Positions 20,289 through 33,289 of a stretch of DNA of 64,000 nucleotides are shown here, one piece after another. Position numbers and translations under genes: made by a program. The DNA comes from Planctomycetaceae bacterium. GTDB lineage: Bacteria; Planctomycetota; Planctomycetia; Pirellulales; Pirellulaceae. Position 1 is the first letter of the stretch, and each line of letters begins with the position of its first letter. The notes beneath the pieces are model-generated. The model searched no databases. It saw nothing but the letters and a program-made list of their open reading frames with translations, and was not told the origin of the DNA. The stretch lies in NCBI GenBank assembly GCA_012729315.1, contig JAAYDI010000139.1, positions 1-64,000 of the forward strand, read 5' to 3'.

Positions 20289-21545
20289 ATGAACGGGCGC
20301 AACATGACTGGCCAGCCGGCATCGACCGAACGAACTCCGCAGGCGTCTGCCAAGACGCATCCCTATCCGGCATGGTCGCCGCGGTTCTGGCATGGGATGC
20401 GGTTTGGGGACTGGATGCGGCTGCTGGTGGAGAATCGCTTTCGCGTCCATCCGTACCGGTGGGCGATGGTCGTTTTGATCTCGTTGATCACCCCTTTCAA
20501 CACGTTGATGTCGCGCTTCCAGCGGCTGTGTTTCGGACACCGCATTGACGCGACGCCGATCCAGCCGCCGCTGTTCATTGTTGGACACTGGCGCAGCGGT
20601 ACGACGTTTCTCCACGAGTTGCTGGTGCTGGACGAGCGGTTCACGTTTCCGACGACGTACCAGTGCTTTGCTCCGGAGCATTTCCTGCTGACGGAGTGGT
20701 TTTTGGCCCGGTACTGCGGCTTCCTGTTGCCCAAGCAGCGCCCGATGGACAACGTGCGGACGGGGTGGCAGCGTCCCCAGGAAGACGAGTTCGCGCTGCT
20801 GACGATGGGCGTCCGCACCCCCTACCGCCGGATGGCGTTCCCCAACCATCCGGCTCCCGATCTGGAATACCTCAATATGGAAGGCATTCCAGCGCCCGAG
20901 TTGGAGAAGTGGTGCCGCGCGATGCGGACTTTCGTACAGACGCTGACCTATCGCAGCGCCAAGCGGGTGATTCTCAAGTCACCGACCCATACGGGGCGGA
21001 TCGCGTTGTTGTCCGAGCTGTTCCCAGGCGCTCAGTTCATTCACATCACGCGGGATCCGTACGCCCTGTTTCCGTCGACGCAGCGGTTGTGGAAGTCGCT
21101 CGATGCCGCCCAGGGTTGTCAGGTGCCCCGGCACCAGCAGTTGGACCAGTACGTCTACGACGCCTTGCTCCGTATGTACGATGGTTTTACGAAGCAGCGG
21201 GCCCAGCTGGATCCGGCCCAGATCGTGGACATTCGCTATGAGGACCTGGTGGCGGACCCGCTGAGCGTGGTTGAGGAAATCTACCGGAAGCTGAGTCTGG
21301 GAGATTTCGCGCGCGTGCGTGGTGCGCTCGAGGCATACCTGCACCGCGAGAAGTCGTACCAGACGAACCGGCACGAGCTGACGCCGGAGGTCCGCGCCGA
21401 GATCCGGCGCCGCTGGCATCACTACTTCGAGCAGTACGGCTACGATACCGCTGCCGCGGATCGCGCTCAGGGGAACGCGGCGGCGATGGGCTGCCCCGAG
21501 CGATCGCAAGGCGGCAGTCTGGGGGCCAGATCGCGGCGTGCGTAG
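20289..21545 (+). CDS. Sulfotransferase family protein
   Basis: The product is 418 aa and resembles the sulfotransferase_3 group. The PAPS 5'-phosphosulfate loop is FIVGHWRSGTTFLHELL (96-112, with G99, R102, S103, G104, T105). The 3'-phosphate site is probably KRVILKSPTHTGRI with FIHITRDPYALFPSTQRLW. A C-terminal DIRYEDLVADPL and YQTNRHELTPE are typical of this group. It should transfer sulfate from PAPS to a carbohydrate, lipid or protein hydroxyl. There is no signal peptide, so it is cytoplasmic or peripheral. It interrupts the flhB-flhA order and its last 79 nt overlap the end of the opposite-strand membrane protein. The start may instead be ATG 20304. Confidence 0.85.
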   Translation: MNGRNMTGQPASTERTPQASAKTHPYPAWSPRFWHGMRFGDWMRLLVENRFRVHPYRWAMVVLISLITPFNTLMSRFQRLCFGHRIDATPIQPPLFIVGHWRSGTTFLHELLVLDERFTFPTTYQCFAPEHFLLTEWFLARYCGFLLPKQRPMDNVRTGWQRPQEDEFALLTMGVRTPYRRMAFPNHPAPDLEYLNMEGIPAPELEKWCRAMRTFVQTLTYRSAKRVILKSPTHTGRIALLSELFPGAQFIHITRDPYALFPSTQRLWKSLDAAQGCQVPRHQQLDQYVYDALLRMYDGFTKQRAQLDPAQIVDIRYEDLVADPLSVVEEIYRKLSLGDFARVRGALEAYLHREKSYQTNRHELTPEVRAEIRRRWHHYFEQYGYDTAAADRAQGNAAAMGCPERSQGGSLGARSRRA

Positions 21546-23053
21546 ATCGCGTATCCGTCGTCGCGGTAGACACGCTGCCAGGGCGCATCCGCGCCGGCCG
21601 CCTGCAGCGGCTCCAGTCGGGCTTCGAGCGGACTGGACCGCGGCACGAGCACCACGTCGGGCGGGTAGCGGCGGAGCACCTGCTGCCAGGCGCGCGCGGT
21701 GGCGTATAGATCCCACAACTCCCGTACCTGATCGGGTGGGAAGGCCACTTCGTAGCGGCCGTCACAGCTGACCTTCACGGCTGGATGCAGCTTCCACGAC
21801 ACGAACGCGCCGGCCTCGAACGGCACCATGGCGTGGCCCTTGAAGGCCGCCGCGCGCAGATACTCCACCGCCCCTGCCGGGTACTGGAGCGACGGGTCTT
21901 CGGCCCGGGTCAGCGGCAGACGCAGATCCCAGCATCGATTGTGCGCCGCCTGCGCGATACCCAGGACGCCCAGCCCGATCCACAGGCCGCAGAGCCATCT
22001 GGCGTGTTTACAGCTGAACAGGCCGATGGCCCGGCCCGCGGTGGTCTCAGCCAGCAGCGGAGGCACGTAACTGATCCAGACCACCGCGTAGATCGACAGA
22101 TGCCGCACGTGCTGGCAGGCCAGCAGGGCGGGCACGAGGATCATGAGTAGTTCCCCGGAGCGCTGGCGCGCGTGCCGGCACAGGACGTACCCGAGCGGCA
22201 GCCAGGTGATGGCGTACGGCACCAGCAGGCGCGGAAAATGCCAGAGCGGCTGCCATTCGGCGATGAAGGGGCGGTCCATACGTACGGCGTGCCATAGATA
22301 GGGCCCGTACTGCCAGCCGTACGGGTTGACGCCCAGCAGCACCGCCATCGCCGCGGCGACGGCCCACAGATGCCGCGTGGCGCGGGTCGCGGCGCCGATC
22401 GCCCGGTGGTGGCGGTAGGCCTCGACCCAGCGCCCCAGCGCGTAGATCCCGTAAAGACCGGCGCCGACCAGGAAGCCGGCATGCAGGTTGATCCAGACGA
22501 CGTAGACCGGGATCCAGATCAGGATCCACCGCCGTCCCCCCTGCCGGTCCTGTTCCAGCAGGTGCAGCAGGCCGACGGTCCCGCACAGCGTAAACAGCTG
22601 AGCGCGCACCGAGAGGAAGCCGATGCAGCCGCAGAGGATAGCCAGCGGTGCGAGCAGTGACAGTACTGCGTCACTGGATCCGCGGCGTTTGGCCAGGAGC
22701 CAGCAGCCTGCCGCGACGGCACACGCCCCGGCATACTTCAACAGCGTCAGGCCGGTGCCCCCCAGACTCATGCTCAACACATAGAACACGGCGCCGGCGC
22801 CCCATTCATGATGGACGCACGGACTGACGGTCGGTGTGTAGGCGAACACGTCCTCGATCGGCACGCTCCTCGTCTGGAGCGCCTCGCGGAACCAGGCCAT
22901 TTCGTGGTACAGGTCTGGCGACACCCGGTGGATGGCGCTGATGCTGCCCACCCAGACGCCCAGCAGTCCGAACCAGCTGGCCCAGCGCAACCGCGGGCCG
23001 GCGTCGTGCGGGTGTTGTTCTGCGGTGTCACATGTCACGGGCGAGCCCCCCAC
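21467..23053 (-). CDS. Polytopic membrane protein, GT-C-like
   Basis: The product is up to 528 aa, with about ten hydrophobic segments in the first 370 residues and a soluble C-terminal part of about 150 residues. An early extracytoplasmic loop carries SPDLYHEMAWFREALQ and SPCVHHEWGAGAVFY, which recalls GT-C glycosyltransferase-like proteins with acidic and HEW motifs in the first loop. Family assignment is only tentative. The C-terminal part has AAFKGHAMVPFEAGAFVSWK and VKVSCDGRYEVAFPP. The listed start is GTG; a GTG 15 nt downstream with GTGGGGGG ahead of it is also possible. It is convergent with the sulfotransferase gene, with overlapping ends. The two may act together on a sulfated envelope glycan, which is inference. 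Confidence 0.8.
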   Translation of the reverse strand: MGGSPVTCDTAEQHPHDAGPRLRWASWFGLLGVWVGSISAIHRVSPDLYHEMAWFREALQTRSVPIEDVFAYTPTVSPCVHHEWGAGAVFYVLSMSLGGTGLTLLKYAGACAVAAGCWLLAKRRGSSDAVLSLLAPLAILCGCIGFLSVRAQLFTLCGTVGLLHLLEQDRQGGRRWILIWIPVYVVWINLHAGFLVGAGLYGIYALGRWVEAYRHHRAIGAATRATRHLWAVAAAMAVLLGVNPYGWQYGPYLWHAVRMDRPFIAEWQPLWHFPRLLVPYAITWLPLGYVLCRHARQRSGELLMILVPALLACQHVRHLSIYAVVWISYVPPLLAETTAGRAIGLFSCKHARWLCGLWIGLGVLGIAQAAHNRCWDLRLPLTRAEDPSLQYPAGAVEYLRAAAFKGHAMVPFEAGAFVSWKLHPAVKVSCDGRYEVAFPPDQVRELWDLYATARAWQQVLRRYPPDVVLVPRSSPLEARLEPLQAAGADAPWQRVYRDDGYAIYARRDLAPRLPPCDRSGQPIAAAFP

Positions 23054-28216: not shown

Positions 28217-28293
28217 GGCAAGGCTACCCGTTTGCATGGTGCGGCGGTCGGGCGACGGCCGCACGGAGCGTGAAGCAAGATGATCGTCTTGAT

Positions 28294-28322
28294 CAAACCT
28301 AGTTCAAACCTAGTTCAAACCT
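28294..28322. repeat. 11-bp tandem repeats upstream of fliL
   Basis: CAAACCTAGTT occurs twice in tandem and a third time partially (CAAACCT), in the flgE-fliL gap about 80 nt before the fliL start. On the left is a dyad CAAGA/TCTTG (28275-28290). The position fits a regulator binding site for the fliL transcription unit, but this is not shown. Confidence 0.5.
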
Positions 28323-28455: not shown

Positions 28456-30942
28456 CTATCGCCGAATGTTAAGCAGCTCATCGAGCAGCGTCTGGGAGGT
28501 CGAGATCACGCGCGAGTTGGCCCGGTACTGAGTGGAGGCCAGCAGCAGGTCGACCAGGTTCTTGCCGGTGTCGGTATTGGACAGTTCGATTGCGCCGGCC
28601 ACGATACTGCCCAGTCCGAGATCGCCCGGGTTTCCTTCCACGGGTAGTCCGGAGTTGAACCCGATTCCATACATGTTCTCGCCCCGCTGGTCGAGTCCCA
28701 CCGGGTTGGCGAACCGTACCATGCGGATCTGGCCCAGGGTGCGCGACATGCCGTTGCTGAAGACACCTATGATCTCGCCCCCTTCCCCAATGCTGTAGCT
28801 GGTGAGGGTGCCCACGGCCGAGCCGTCCTGCCGGGAGGCGGCGATCTTGCAGGCGTCGGATGCAAACCCTGAGACCTGCGAGAAGTCCAGGGCGAACACG
28901 AGTGGATTGACGGAGGGGAGGTCGGCCCGATCGATGTTCACGTTCGGGTTGTCGGCGTGGATCAGATTCCCTGCGCCGTCGAACGCGACGAGCCCCGTGC
29001 CGACGGCGATGCGATAGTTCGCACCCGGCGGATCGTTGTCGCCGCAGTCGGCGTACCACCGATACGTCGTCGCGGTGTTGTCCCGCGACTCCAGCACGGC
29101 TGTCAGGCGGACGTTCAGGGGAATGCCCAGCGAATCGTACACAATGAAATCGGACGCCACGCTCTGCCCGATACCTTCCTGGACGGAGGCGAAGCCGAAA
29201 CTGGGCGTCGCGGTCGACCCGTCGGGCAGGTTCATCTGGAACGCCGACGAGGGGATGCTCACGGAGTTGGCCGTTCCGGTGTTGGACACGACGCGCATCC
29301 GCCCGTCGTTCGTGATGCTCGCCCCCGGTGCCAGCATGCCTGACTCCCCGGGAATCTTGTTGATCGATTTGCGGATCGGGTTCACGTCGCCGGTCAGCGA
29401 CGTCTGGATGCCGGACGCCAGTGTCAGGAACTGCAGGTACTCGCCGACCGTCGTTTCGGCCGTGATCTCCATCGTCTTGGTCATCAGCGCGTTGCCCCCC
29501 TTGCGCCCCGTGTACTTCAGCGTGCCGACGTGGAACATTGGCTGGTAGTCCAGCCCATCCCGGCGCACGACGTTGGTCAGCAGCGTGCCACTCGTGATGG
29601 TCGGCCCGTCCAGGTTGATCTGGCGATTGGCCGGGTTGGTCAGATCCGAGATGTCAGCGTCGCTGCGCGAGTCGATGTAGGTCTGCTGGTCGGGCGGCAC
29701 GCTGGCGACCAGATAGTACTGCTCCACGTTGCTGGACAAATTTCGGTAGATATTGATTGTGTCGTACTTCGGAGCGTCGGGCCCGGTCGGGAACGGCGGC
29801 AGATTCTTCAGCTCAATGCGCCCGTTGACGATGGTCACGGGCCCGAGCAACTCGGACGGGCGGCTTTCCTGCGCGCCCAGTCCGGAGAAGGTCACCAGGT
29901 AGCTGTAAACGCCATTGAGTTCCGCTGTGTCGAGCGGAGTGGAGGGGGGGGCGCCGGGGTCTTCGAAACTGGCGGCACCCGGGGTGGTACTGCCGACCAG
30001 CCGGTAATTCTCCTCTGGATCACCGACCGGCACGCCGACCTTGCGGCGATAGATGTTGAGCTGGTCATATTTCGGCGTGCCCCCATCGAGCGGGCTCGGC
30101 GGCAAGTCGCTCAACAGCGGGTTGTGCCCCGCGGCATCGATGGTGACGGGCAGGGCCGTGGTGGAGGAACCCGTTTCCTGGCCTTCGTTGCTGAGGAAGG
30201 TGAAGACGTACTCGTACATGTCGCCGGGCACGAAGTCGGTGCCGGTGCCCGCCGAGGCGACGGTGGTGCCGGTCGTGGTGGGCCGCGCGACAATGTTCAC
30301 CTGAGTGGGGTTGCCCGGTGTGTGGATGTCCGGGCGGGCGATGGTCGAGTCGCCCAGGATCACGCTGTCGATGACCTCGGAAATGGTGGCCACGTCACCC
30401 GTCGGAGTCAGGTTCCCGTTGAGAAAGACATTGCGCGTCGCCTGAGCTGCAGCGGCCGATCCCAGGGGCACCGTCAGCGGCACCAGCTTCGTCGGCTGCA
30501 ACTGATAGTACTCGTCGACGCCATGACCGAGTAACCGGTTGCCGGTCACGGACACCAGCTCGTTGGCCGCATTGGGTTTGAAGATGCCGGTGCGCGTGTA
30601 CTGCGGCTCGCCCTGCCCCCCTTCCACAATGAAGAAGCCCTCCCCTTGGATGGCCATGTCCGTCGTACTGGAGCTGACTTCGACGGTGCCCTGCGTGAAA
30701 TCGGGTGCGATTTCCGCCACCTCCACGCCCAGCCCCAGCTGCCGCGGATTCGTGCCGCCGGTGGTGGCGCTCGGCTGCGAACCCTGACTGAGCGTGCGCA
30801 GGAACTGGCTGGCATAGACCACGTCGGACGCCTTGAAGCCCACCGTCTGAGAGTTGGCTAGGTTGTTGGCCGACACATCGATCTGTACTTCGGCAGCGTT
30901 GAGTCCGGTCAACGCCGTAGTCATGGCTGAGGATAGACCCAT
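28456..30942 (-). CDS. flgE: Large flagellar hook protein FlgE
   Basis: The product is 828 aa, about twice the enterobacterial hook protein. The N-terminal rod segment (SSAMTTALTGLNAAEVQIDV, SANNLANSQTVGFKASD) and the C-terminal one (GAIELSNTDTGKNLVDLLLA, QYRANSRVISTSQTLLDELL) are classical and form the D0 layer. GEGFFIVEGG (100-109) and YTRTGIFKPNA belong to D1. Residues about 240-436 are an insertion of two related modules of about 95 residues. Shared landmarks are YxYxxTF near the start, VTI, LPPxP, PKYDxxNIYR and YxLVxS. These look like beta-sandwich modules. Start is supported by GAGAGGGG 8 nt upstream. A terminator hairpin follows. Hook monomers are exported by the flagellar apparatus and polymerise outside the cell. 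Confidence 0.95.
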   Translation of the reverse strand: MGLSSAMTTALTGLNAAEVQIDVSANNLANSQTVGFKASDVVYASQFLRTLSQGSQPSATTGGTNPRQLGLGVEVAEIAPDFTQGTVEVSSSTTDMAIQGEGFFIVEGGQGEPQYTRTGIFKPNAANELVSVTGNRLLGHGVDEYYQLQPTKLVPLTVPLGSAAAAQATRNVFLNGNLTPTGDVATISEVIDSVILGDSTIARPDIHTPGNPTQVNIVARPTTTGTTVASAGTGTDFVPGDMYEYVFTFLSNEGQETGSSTTALPVTIDAAGHNPLLSDLPPSPLDGGTPKYDQLNIYRRKVGVPVGDPEENYRLVGSTTPGAASFEDPGAPPSTPLDTAELNGVYSYLVTFSGLGAQESRPSELLGPVTIVNGRIELKNLPPFPTGPDAPKYDTINIYRNLSSNVEQYYLVASVPPDQQTYIDSRSDADISDLTNPANRQINLDGPTITSGTLLTNVVRRDGLDYQPMFHVGTLKYTGRKGGNALMTKTMEITAETTVGEYLQFLTLASGIQTSLTGDVNPIRKSINKIPGESGMLAPGASITNDGRMRVVSNTGTANSVSIPSSAFQMNLPDGSTATPSFGFASVQEGIGQSVASDFIVYDSLGIPLNVRLTAVLESRDNTATTYRWYADCGDNDPPGANYRIAVGTGLVAFDGAGNLIHADNPNVNIDRADLPSVNPLVFALDFSQVSGFASDACKIAASRQDGSAVGTLTSYSIGEGGEIIGVFSNGMSRTLGQIRMVRFANPVGLDQRGENMYGIGFNSGLPVEGNPGDLGLGSIVAGAIELSNTDTGKNLVDLLLASTQYRANSRVISTSQTLLDELLNIRR

Positions 30943-31482: not shown

Positions 31483-31538
31483 GTTGTTCCGATCACGTTG
31501 TTCAGATAGTTGTCCAGATAAGTTGTTCAGATAGTTGT
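31483..31538 (-). repeat. Five ACAAC motifs in flgD leader
   Basis: In the fliK-flgD gap the motif ACAAC (GTTGT on the plus strand) begins at 31483, 31497, 31509, 31522 and 31534, i.e. at steps of 14, 12, 13 and 12 nt. Several copies share a longer unit close to ATCTGAACAAC. The fliE leader has the same number at similar spacing. Confidence 0.7.
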
Positions 31539-31552
31539 TCAGAGCATGCTGT

Positions 31553-33289
31553 TCAGATGACTACGTTGAGTCGTCCGGGCTGCGCGGCAAGGTACTGGTC
31601 CGGGGCGAGCTCGGTCGACGCTGGCCGGGCCGCGGCGGACTGCACGCGCCCGGGCGTCCGCCGCGGCGCGTGCTCGGCATCGGGTGCATCAAACGCGTGG
31701 TCTCCTCCCTGCTGCTGCGACACGTCGACGTCGAACTGGGTGACCTGGAAGCCGCGTTCCGCCAGCCGCTCGCGCAGCTGCGGAAGCTGATGCAGCAGCA
31801 GGCTCTTGGTGGCCTCGGTTTCTGCTTCGATCCGGGCAGAGAGTTGGCCGTCCCGCAGCGAGACTTCCAGCCGCAGCCGACCCAGTTCGGGCGGGCGCAG
31901 ACGCAGCCGCAGTGGTCCGCCGCGCTGCGAGGCGGCTTCGATCGCGCGCGCCACGCGCTGAATGAGTCGCTGTTGGTCGGCCGGCCTCAGGTCGTGCCCC
32001 GTCGCCGGATCCGTGGCAGAACGCTGCAGCAGCTGGTCTGAAAACCGCTCCGCTGCGTGGATGCGCTGGATGGCCGAGGGCCGCGCGTCGCCGTCCGGTG
32101 CGGCGGGCGTGGGAGCCTGCTCGCCGGTCCCTTCGACCTGGAGCCGTTCCGCCACGCTGTCGGTCGGCCGAAGAGCCGGGGGCAGGTCGCCGGCGTCCGC
32201 GCCGGCGGCATTCGCCGCCGCGGGTGGCTCCCCGCGCGCGGTCGCGCCGGCCGGTGAGGTGGCCGTGGAGCGCGCGGCGGCGGCAGGCTTTTCGCTCTTC
32301 CTTCTGCCGGCCGGCCGGGCTGCCTCTGCCGGTTCCACGGGCGCTGGCAAGCCGTCCGCCGTGGTGGCCCCCGTCAAGCCGGTCCCGTCCGTGGCCGGTG
32401 CTGGCTCGGGTGTCTGCACCGCAGTGGCCACCGCCGGGTCGGGAGTCTGTGGGGTGGAAGCCTGTTTAGTGTCCGGCTGCTGTGCCGGCTGCTGTGCCGG
32501 CTGCTGTGTTGGCTGCTGCGCCGGTTGCTGTGCCGGTTGCTGTGCCGGCTGCTGTGTTGGCTGCTGCGCCGCCTGCTGTGCCGGTTGCTGTATCGGTTGC
32601 TGTGCCGGTTGCTGTGCCGGTTGCTGTGCCGTCTGCTGCGCCGCCTGCTGTGCCGGTTGCTGTATCGGTTGCTGCGCCGGTTGCTGTGCCGTCTGCTGCG
32701 CCGGTTGTTGTGCCGGTTGCTGCACCACCTGCTGTGCCGGCTGTTGTGCCGGTTGCTGTGCCGGCTGCTGTGCCGGTTGCTGTGCCGGTTGCTGTACCGG
32801 CTGGTGTGGCGGGTCGGTGGGCGTAGTGGGCTCAGCCGCCTGGGGCGTGGAGCTGTCGGCTGTGTCTGCGAGGCGGCCGGCTTCTCCGAGGTCGTTAGCG
32901 GGGCGCTCCGCAGGCTGGCAGCCTTCCTCGGCTGCGCTGACCGGTGGAGTGTCCACCGGGGCGGTATCGGCGTCGTCGGGCGCCGGCGTTTCCGGGGGCG
33001 TCTCGGGGGTGGTGGCCGCTGCCATTGCTGCGTCGTCGGCCGCGACCGGTTCGTCGGGTGTGGGTGGTTTGTCTGCAGCGGGTGGTTTGTCTGCGGCGTC
33101 GCGCGGAGGATCGGCTGGCCGGTTCTCGGTTCGAGCCGGTGTTGCCGGCGCGGTGTCCACCGGGGCTGCCGCGGGCGCCGGCTGCAGATAGTTGGCGAAC
33201 AGGGTGTCGGTGCGCGCGCCCCCGGCGGGCATCCACGTCGTTGGCGTGGCCTCGTTCGCGTGACAGGTGTTGACGGAACGGCATTCCAT
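31553..33289 (-). CDS. fliK: Flagellar hook-length control protein FliK
   Basis: The product is 578 aa. FliK measures hook length and triggers the FlhB switch. The N-terminal two thirds is Pro/Ala/Gln/Thr-rich and disordered in character. It includes an uninterrupted QQPA-type repeat at about residues 162-272. The C-terminal Flg_hook domain is recognisable: GGPLRLRLRPPELGRLRLEV, SLRDGQLSARIEAE and LRERLAERGFQVTQFDVDVS. FliK is secreted during assembly. Start ATG has no clear ribosome site; the upstream gene ends 5 nt before, so translation is probably coupled. Position between the motE-like gene and flgD is standard. The repeat region would alter ruler length if copy number varies. Confidence 0.9.
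   Translation of the reverse strand: MECRSVNTCHANEATPTTWMPAGGARTDTLFANYLQPAPAAAPVDTAPATPARTENRPADPPRDAADKPPAADKPPTPDEPVAADDAAMAAATTPETPPETPAPDDADTAPVDTPPVSAAEEGCQPAERPANDLGEAGRLADTADSSTPQAAEPTTPTDPPHQPVQQPAQQPAQQPAQQPAQQPAQQVVQQPAQQPAQQTAQQPAQQPIQQPAQQAAQQTAQQPAQQPAQQPIQQPAQQAAQQPTQQPAQQPAQQPAQQPTQQPAQQPAQQPDTKQASTPQTPDPAVATAVQTPEPAPATDGTGLTGATTADGLPAPVEPAEAARPAGRRKSEKPAAAARSTATSPAGATARGEPPAAANAAGADAGDLPPALRPTDSVAERLQVEGTGEQAPTPAAPDGDARPSAIQRIHAAERFSDQLLQRSATDPATGHDLRPADQQRLIQRVARAIEAASQRGGPLRLRLRPPELGRLRLEVSLRDGQLSARIEAETEATKSLLLHQLPQLRERLAERGFQVTQFDVDVSQQQGGDHAFDAPDAEHAPRRTPGRVQSAAARPASTELAPDQYLAAQPGRLNVVI
32473..32805. repeat. 12-bp coding minisatellite in fliK (QQPA units)
   Basis: About 28 units of 12 bp encode Gln-Gln-Pro-Ala with variants QQTA, QQPI, QQAA, QQVV and QQPT. 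Codon variants are scattered, so the array is old and partly diverged, but long exact stretches remain. Unit length is a multiple of three, so expansion or loss keeps the frame. Confidence 0.93.

Follow-up and report, generated by a model that had tools for sequence, protein, structure and literature searches.

The window analysed here, i.e., the whole stretch of 64,000 nucleotides from a Planctomycetaceae bacterium (GCA_012729315.1, contig JAAYDI010000139.1, positions 1 to 64,000), carries a flagellar operon that includes flgE, the gene for the hook protein, which starts with an ATG in the ORF listing (Table 1). Pfam matches identified around flgE the genes flgD and fliK, a fliN-type gene, fliP and the gene for a T3SS-type ATPase (fliI), and fliO, flhB, fliG, fliF, fliH, and flhA were found in the same neighbourhood. 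A candidate ORF for fliL gave only a weak match (E 0.032, below the cut-off), and an ORF of 528 aa located beside the flagellar export genes (21467-23053) had no Pfam match at E 0.01. Three tandem repeats were observed in this region: a 12-base repeat of 28.3 copies within fliK (32473-32812), which makes part of the hook-length control protein rich in Q, P, and A; a 25-base repeat of about three copies between flgD and fliK (31483-31558); and a perfect 11-base repeat of 2.7 copies in the interval (28293-28322) that separates flgE from the weakly fliL-like ORF.

Table 1. The flgE gene, the parts of its product and two neighbouring hook genes, with positions in the window.
Feature	Position	Strand	Basis
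flgE, hook protein, 828 aa	28456..30942	-	ORF; Pfam and NCBIfam FlgE-type matches; PDB hook matches
FlgE residues 1-184: D0, D1, and start of D2	30391..30942	-	aligned with Salmonella FlgE up to 164 (profile alignment)
Variable linker leading into the module pair, residues 201-240	30223..30342	-	27.4% identity in 31 FlgE
Module 1, residues 242-331, predicted beta-sandwich	29950..30219	-	profile and AF2 model
Module 2, residues 344-431, predicted beta-sandwich	29650..29913	-	profile, conservation, and AF2 model
Further D3-like extra domain, residues ~440-585	29188..29625	-	alignment with module-less FlgE
FlgE residues ~587-828: rest of D2, D1, D0	28459..29184	-	aligned with Salmonella FlgE 172-403 (profile alignment)
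flgD, hook cap protein, 150 aa	31003..31455	-	Pfam FlgD, 3.8e-18
fliK, hook-length control protein, 578 aa	31553..33289	-	Pfam Flg_hook, 1.5e-21

The two modules of FlgE lie inside an otherwise normal hook protein. Four Pfam domains, Flg_bb_rod (7-37), the FlgE/F/G D1 domain (97-147), FlgE_D2 (597-707), and Flg_bbr_C (782-826), were all recovered above the cut-off and flank the modules, in agreement with a first-pass annotation made from the sequence alone that had described normal hook parts on both sides. The NCBIfam model of the FlgEFG subfamily (TIGR03506) was also above its cut-off, the listed FlgE equivalog models being below theirs. The structure alignment of the FlgE model with the Salmonella hook chain extended over 379 residues (Z 24.5, rmsd 3.7). 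The profile alignment with Salmonella FlgE, from which the Salmonella-equivalent residue numbers were read by eye in printed form, thus leaves ~400 residues in the place where Salmonella has about seven. The border of the second aligned stretch is approximate, since a single-sequence search made this stretch start earlier, at residue 563. In addition to the module pair, these ~400 residues include the D3-like domain, which the first-pass annotation had not described and which is partly present in the FlgE of the sister order; the best PDB match of residues 434-576 in a sequence search was an unrelated kinase, with E = 1.

The local alignment of residues 241-336 with residues 344-435 had a score of 109, with 31 identical residues over 80 aligned positions. 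In 2000 shuffles of the second segment, the mean score was 28.6 (SD 5.3, maximum 54), the observed score being ~15 SD higher. The two related modules announced at residues 240-436 are thus well above background, and these residues correspond by arithmetic to positions 30225-29635 of the window, i.e., to within a base of the positions first given. The motifs quoted in support of the relationship are present in both modules (PKYDQLNIYR and PKYDTINIYR, LPPSP and LPPFP, YRLVGS and YYLVAS). The borders used here for the modules (Table 1) were set by a profile built on their relatives.

Both modules were predicted by AlphaFold2 to form beta-sandwiches, with a mean pLDDT of 93.4 for the pair and 86.2 for the whole FlgE. 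The repeated domain is thus present in the structure prediction, and the alignment, this confident model and the conservation of the modules across the order support two extra beta domains per subunit. We use "Ig-like" as a descriptive label for the predicted sandwich; none of the Pfam Ig or FN3 models was matched by any of 20 modules, even when E values up to 1 were allowed. A single-sequence PDB search with the module pair gave no match at E up to 5, so that a profile was needed to find relatives. With the module profile, we recovered in the PDB a virion-associated phage protein (8jov, E 1.3e-6) and Gp6.1 of phage SPO1 (9vel, E 3.1e-5); the same search also listed two cellulases (E 0.46 and 0.49, respectively). 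PHROG 511, annotated as "internal virion protein," was matched by 14 of 20 modules with E no higher than 0.1, the lowest value being 3.4e-10. The best solved structure in the structure search was again SPO1 (9vel_B, Z 8.3, rmsd 2.5 over 91 residues, 31% identity), followed by the crAssphage muzzle protein (Z 7.3), and the first antibody appeared at Z 3.8. In such searches, the best hit often reaches a Z of 7 to 8 even when there is no true match, and the sequence evidence for kinship with virion proteins thus weighs more than the structure score. Alpha-latrotoxin was also listed by VIA-align (Z 6.5 and 6.0), a likeness that may correspond only to a common arrangement. Foldseek recovered five models of a viral library at E <= 0.001, four of them labelled phage and one unnamed, and no PDB entry at E 0.001. 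Among phage records, we obtained one match, a "phage stabilization protein" of Caudoviricetes sp. (37.6% identity, 4e-5); among viral contigs, none of 18 pattern matches was confirmed by tblastn. By sequence, the nearest solved relatives of the modules are thus phage virion proteins, and the predicted fold agrees with this kinship.

The modules are common to the FlgE of this lineage across Pirellulales, usually in two copies, in some lineages in three and once as a single copy. In a first set, comprising 71 fetched loci and the present FlgE, all scanned with the module profile (L050 was dropped because it is the same gene as L036), we found 36 different module-bearing FlgE: 31 with two modules, including the present one, four with three (L036, L038, L040, and L051) and one with a single module. 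The latter (L037) is the second FlgE of genome G020, which has two module-bearing flgE genes, suggesting that the module pair is not indispensable in every copy. The 35 FlgE without modules in this set were 26 sequences of the sister order or of other parts of the phylum (L052-L077, among which L067 is cut short), the divergent FlgE of six genomes belonging to the same family (L042-L047, encoded in open frames 550-608 aa long), L048, L049, and L041, a fragment starting around residue 511. The sister order is presumably that of Planctomyces and Gimesia, and no modules were seen in its FlgE in an alignment of eight sequences.

In a second set of 79 named loci, which partly overlap the surveyed genomes and through which alone FlgE from outside the phylum were sampled, 33 had modules. 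Thirty of these had two, among them Rhodopirellula europaea 6C (L089), Blastopirellula marina DSM 3645 (L110) had three, L115 had two, and the second module of L116 was cut short. The 46 others were FlgE of other planctomycetes and other phyla, plus three fragments that lack the module region itself (L112, L114, and L149). Four loci had in-frame stops in the matched range and were read in six frames, which gave two modules for L115 and none for L126, L157, and L158. A further 20 stretches were picked by hand, of which 19 had modules (15 with two, three with three and one whose second module was cut by the contig end); the twentieth, without modules, had been wrongly chosen. Three-module forms were found in families f1, f4, and f17.

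At the genome level, 136 of 246 genomes of the order had a module match at E 1e-6 and 122 had a FlgE core match at E 1e-30. The module was present in 119 of these 122, a figure that counts its presence anywhere in the genome and not in each case within FlgE, and the FlgE of the other three (G357, G362, and G385) are cut at contig ends. Seventeen genomes had a module without a FlgE core match, mostly in very large open frames among the matches listed. Of the 294 genomes examined across the phylum, seven had a match at E 1e-5: five belong to this order, and in the remaining two the match lies in ORFs of 1736 and 500 aa. None of the 16 genomes of the sister family (f21) had a match at the same threshold.

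The same module thus also occurs in very large proteins of Pirellulales. Five of these were looked at, and the open frames range from ~2400 to 6800 aa among the matches listed. The present genome encodes one of 4567 residues on another contig (C95, L201:5854-19554), with a module at 1067-1147 (E 8.8e-14), dockerin, GEVED, and pre-peptidase C-terminal domains identified by Pfam, and a planctomycete extracellular signature below threshold.

We performed phylogenetic analyses on the FlgE core and on the modules. The core tree leaves out L041, L048, L050, and L067, and its midpoint root is drawn by L049, whose branch is so long that its position means nothing. In this tree, the 36 module-bearing FlgE corresponded to one side of a branch (100/99), suggesting that the insertion is old. 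The eight sequences of the sister order were grouped (100/99) and joined to the module-bearing ones (92/100). The six short Pirellulaceae FlgE (L042-L047) formed a separate and distant FlgE lineage (100/100), so that the absence of modules from these FlgE does not point to a loss. In the alignment, the eight sister-order FlgE cover residues 1-200, contribute 6 or 7 residues to positions 201-238, leave the module columns empty and have 95 or 96 residues opposite positions 438-560, indicating that the D3-like domain is present in part. In the tree of the modules only (L050 left out), the 36 last modules were again split off by a single branch (100/99), the other side of which held the first modules together with the additional module of the three-module forms. 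From the core tree, the modules-only tree and the sister-order alignment taken together, the simplest reading would be a single insertion before the sampled families diverged, followed by later gains and a loss. The separation of the first from the last modules throughout the order rules out a recent duplication within this genome.

We also obtained a wider tree including 20 modules of giant proteins, one of a phage, two of other planctomycete frames and 32 of FlgE. The last modules held together (73/84) in this tree, whose bootstrap had not settled, and the first modules scattered, with 12 of 17 placed beside giant-protein modules at a weak fork (47/73). This scattering does not distinguish a duplication inside FlgE from two separate captures. 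The first-pass annotation had called the module duplicated: the homology of the two copies stands, and duplication within FlgE itself does not follow from the tree that includes the modules of other proteins. The same tree would be compatible with FlgE, the giant proteins or phages as the donor.

The conservation of the different parts of FlgE bears on the role of the modules. Among the 31 two-module FlgE, mean pairwise identity was highest at the two ends (67.6% in residues 1-184 and 68.2% in the C-terminal core), followed by D2 with 58.2%; it was 45.8% in the D3-like domain and 44.7% in module 2, and fell to 35.6% in module 1 and 27.4% in the linker. Module 2 is better conserved than module 1, and the drop from the core (68%) to module 2 (45%) and then to module 1 (36%) is as expected of an exposed outer layer. 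By analogy with other hooks, we lean toward a role of the modules as an outer, D4-like layer that would widen and brace the hook. According to this scenario, a segment of ~230 residues with two tandem Ig-like modules would have been inserted, before the sampled Pirellulales families diverged, into an extra domain that the outer D2 region already had. FlgE would polymerise through its unchanged D0, D1, and D2 cores, and the modules, projecting from each subunit, would make up the hook's outermost layer, like D4 in the Campylobacter hook. Beside the D3-like domain, module 2 would pack and brace neighbouring subunits, and module 1 would lie farther out and be freer to vary, the outcome being a wider and stiffer hook. 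The outward projection, the lateral contacts, the widening and the stiffening are all proposed here by analogy. The junction of module 2 with the D3-like domain and its better conservation would fit packing; the variability of module 1 would fit exposure, and equally adhesion, escape or mere tolerance.

Support for this analogy comes from hooks that already have large outer domains. According to PMC5069557, Campylobacter D3-D4 grafted between Thr167 and Pro168 of Salmonella FlgE assembled into a bulkier hook of 25.1 nm, and the strain was motile at about two-thirds of the wild-type speed; in the same study, Salmonella with the D3 graft alone had no filaments. Slower swimming in one case and the loss of filaments in the other suggest that such inserts are not simply beneficial. 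Published work on Campylobacter gives a hook width of 280 Å for C. jejuni vs. 180 Å for Salmonella, and reports very poor motility and broken flagella in C. jejuni without D3-D4, the extra domains strengthening the hook. The first-pass annotation had suggested a thick or sheathed hook; the former is plausible by analogy, from the Campylobacter position and graft, and the latter is unsupported, nothing having been found in its favour.

The modules could instead be adhesive, as the first-pass annotation had also proposed: present in many copies on the hook, they would form a sticky collar attaching the cell to surfaces or to other cells, with module 1 setting the specificity. Ig-like folds often bind, and the same module is found in the giant proteins, including that of the present genome with its dockerin and GEVED domains and sub-threshold extracellular signature; furthermore, module 1 and the linker are the most variable parts. 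However, an Ig-like fold is by itself no proof of binding, no binding motif or ligand was identified, and the invariant residues, largely shared by both modules, appear to be residues of the fold. We regard adhesion as a rather unlikely explanation.

It is less probable still that the modules are a tolerated decoration, fixed by drift at a D2 site that accepts many inserts, with hook performance unchanged. PMC5069557 describes the outer region of FlgE as hyper-variable in both size and structure, and the motility of the Salmonella graft strain goes in the same direction, but the failure of the D3 graft alone suggests that not every insert is tolerated. In addition, the modules were retained across the order, and module 2 is conserved at 45% identity, like the D3-like domain. 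A shield against flagellum-binding phages or grazers, with a variable module 1 selected to escape recognition, could account for the greater variability of this module, for the differences in module number between lineages and for the resemblance to virion domains; we consider it quite improbable. Finally, we found nothing in favour of either a chance resemblance or an assembly artefact that joined a phage gene to flgE, and both are excluded for practical purposes by the ~15 SD of the repeat and by the same architecture in independent genomes, such as those of Rhodopirellula europaea 6C and Blastopirellula marina DSM 3645.

Whatever their role, the insertion of the modules is real, old and widespread in the order, and represents a countable variation on a known theme; the function that we infer for them, a brace in the outer layer, is drawn from position and analogy. 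The hook is a universal joint, and the reasons why its outer domains differ between bacteria are mostly guessed. A single order now offers an outer hook module that can be recognised and counted, with none seen in the sister order, mostly two and sometimes three in Pirellulales. Cultured strains exist, so that the number of outer domains could be compared with the width or stiffness of the hook by ordinary microscopy. More speculatively, the order may have remodelled the outside of its hook with a domain family that is also present in phage particles, the number of modules (one, two or three) setting either width and stiffness or adhesiveness, a doubtful proposal at this stage. If it is true, related genera with 0, 2, and 3 modules would constitute a natural dose series.

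Large extra domains of the hook are already known elsewhere, and none of the virion-like kind was found in the searches made here. In the open literature, we found nothing on these modules or on the structure or measurement of planctomycete hooks, although publication elsewhere is possible. Among the most similar systems is the FlgE of Campylobacter jejuni (PDB 5jxl, 5az4), which has a similar size (851 aa) and a D2 insert at about the same site. The insert described here lies in D2, flanked by the counterparts of Salmonella residues 164 and 172, close to the published site of the Campylobacter D3-D4 graft. According to PMC5069557, the Campylobacter D3-D4 is an insert of ~386 residues in which D4 forms one continuous segment inside D3; in the present FlgE, the module pair is similarly nested in the D3-like domain. 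The two proteins could be significantly aligned by sequence in the core only, the only stretch of the 5jxl alignment within the insert having an i-Evalue of 370. The Campylobacter domains thus have no sequence match to the modules, and the mechanical analogy rests on position. The same paper reports that the domains found at this place of D2 in Campylobacter and Caulobacter differ wholly in fold, and that DALI gave its authors no PDB match for Campylobacter D3 and D4. The D3 of Caulobacter crescentus FlgE (PDB 5ay6) is also an extra domain, but is described there as a half-barrel of 145 residues, unlike the tandem Ig-like modules. Both this hook and that of Helicobacter pylori FlgE2 (PDB 5npy) have extra domains, and their core or D2 can be aligned by structure with the present FlgE.

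In contrast to Campylobacter D3 and D4, the modules of the Pirellulales FlgE are tandem homologues with matches to virion domains. They share their module with giant extracellular-type proteins of Pirellulales that are otherwise unrelated to FlgE, and they resemble the phage virion modules (SPO1 Gp6.1, 8jov, and PHROG 511) both in sequence and in predicted fold. However, the latter sit in phage particles, whereas the modules described here are part of a flagellar subunit; a virion-type module is thus now placed in the bacterial hook.
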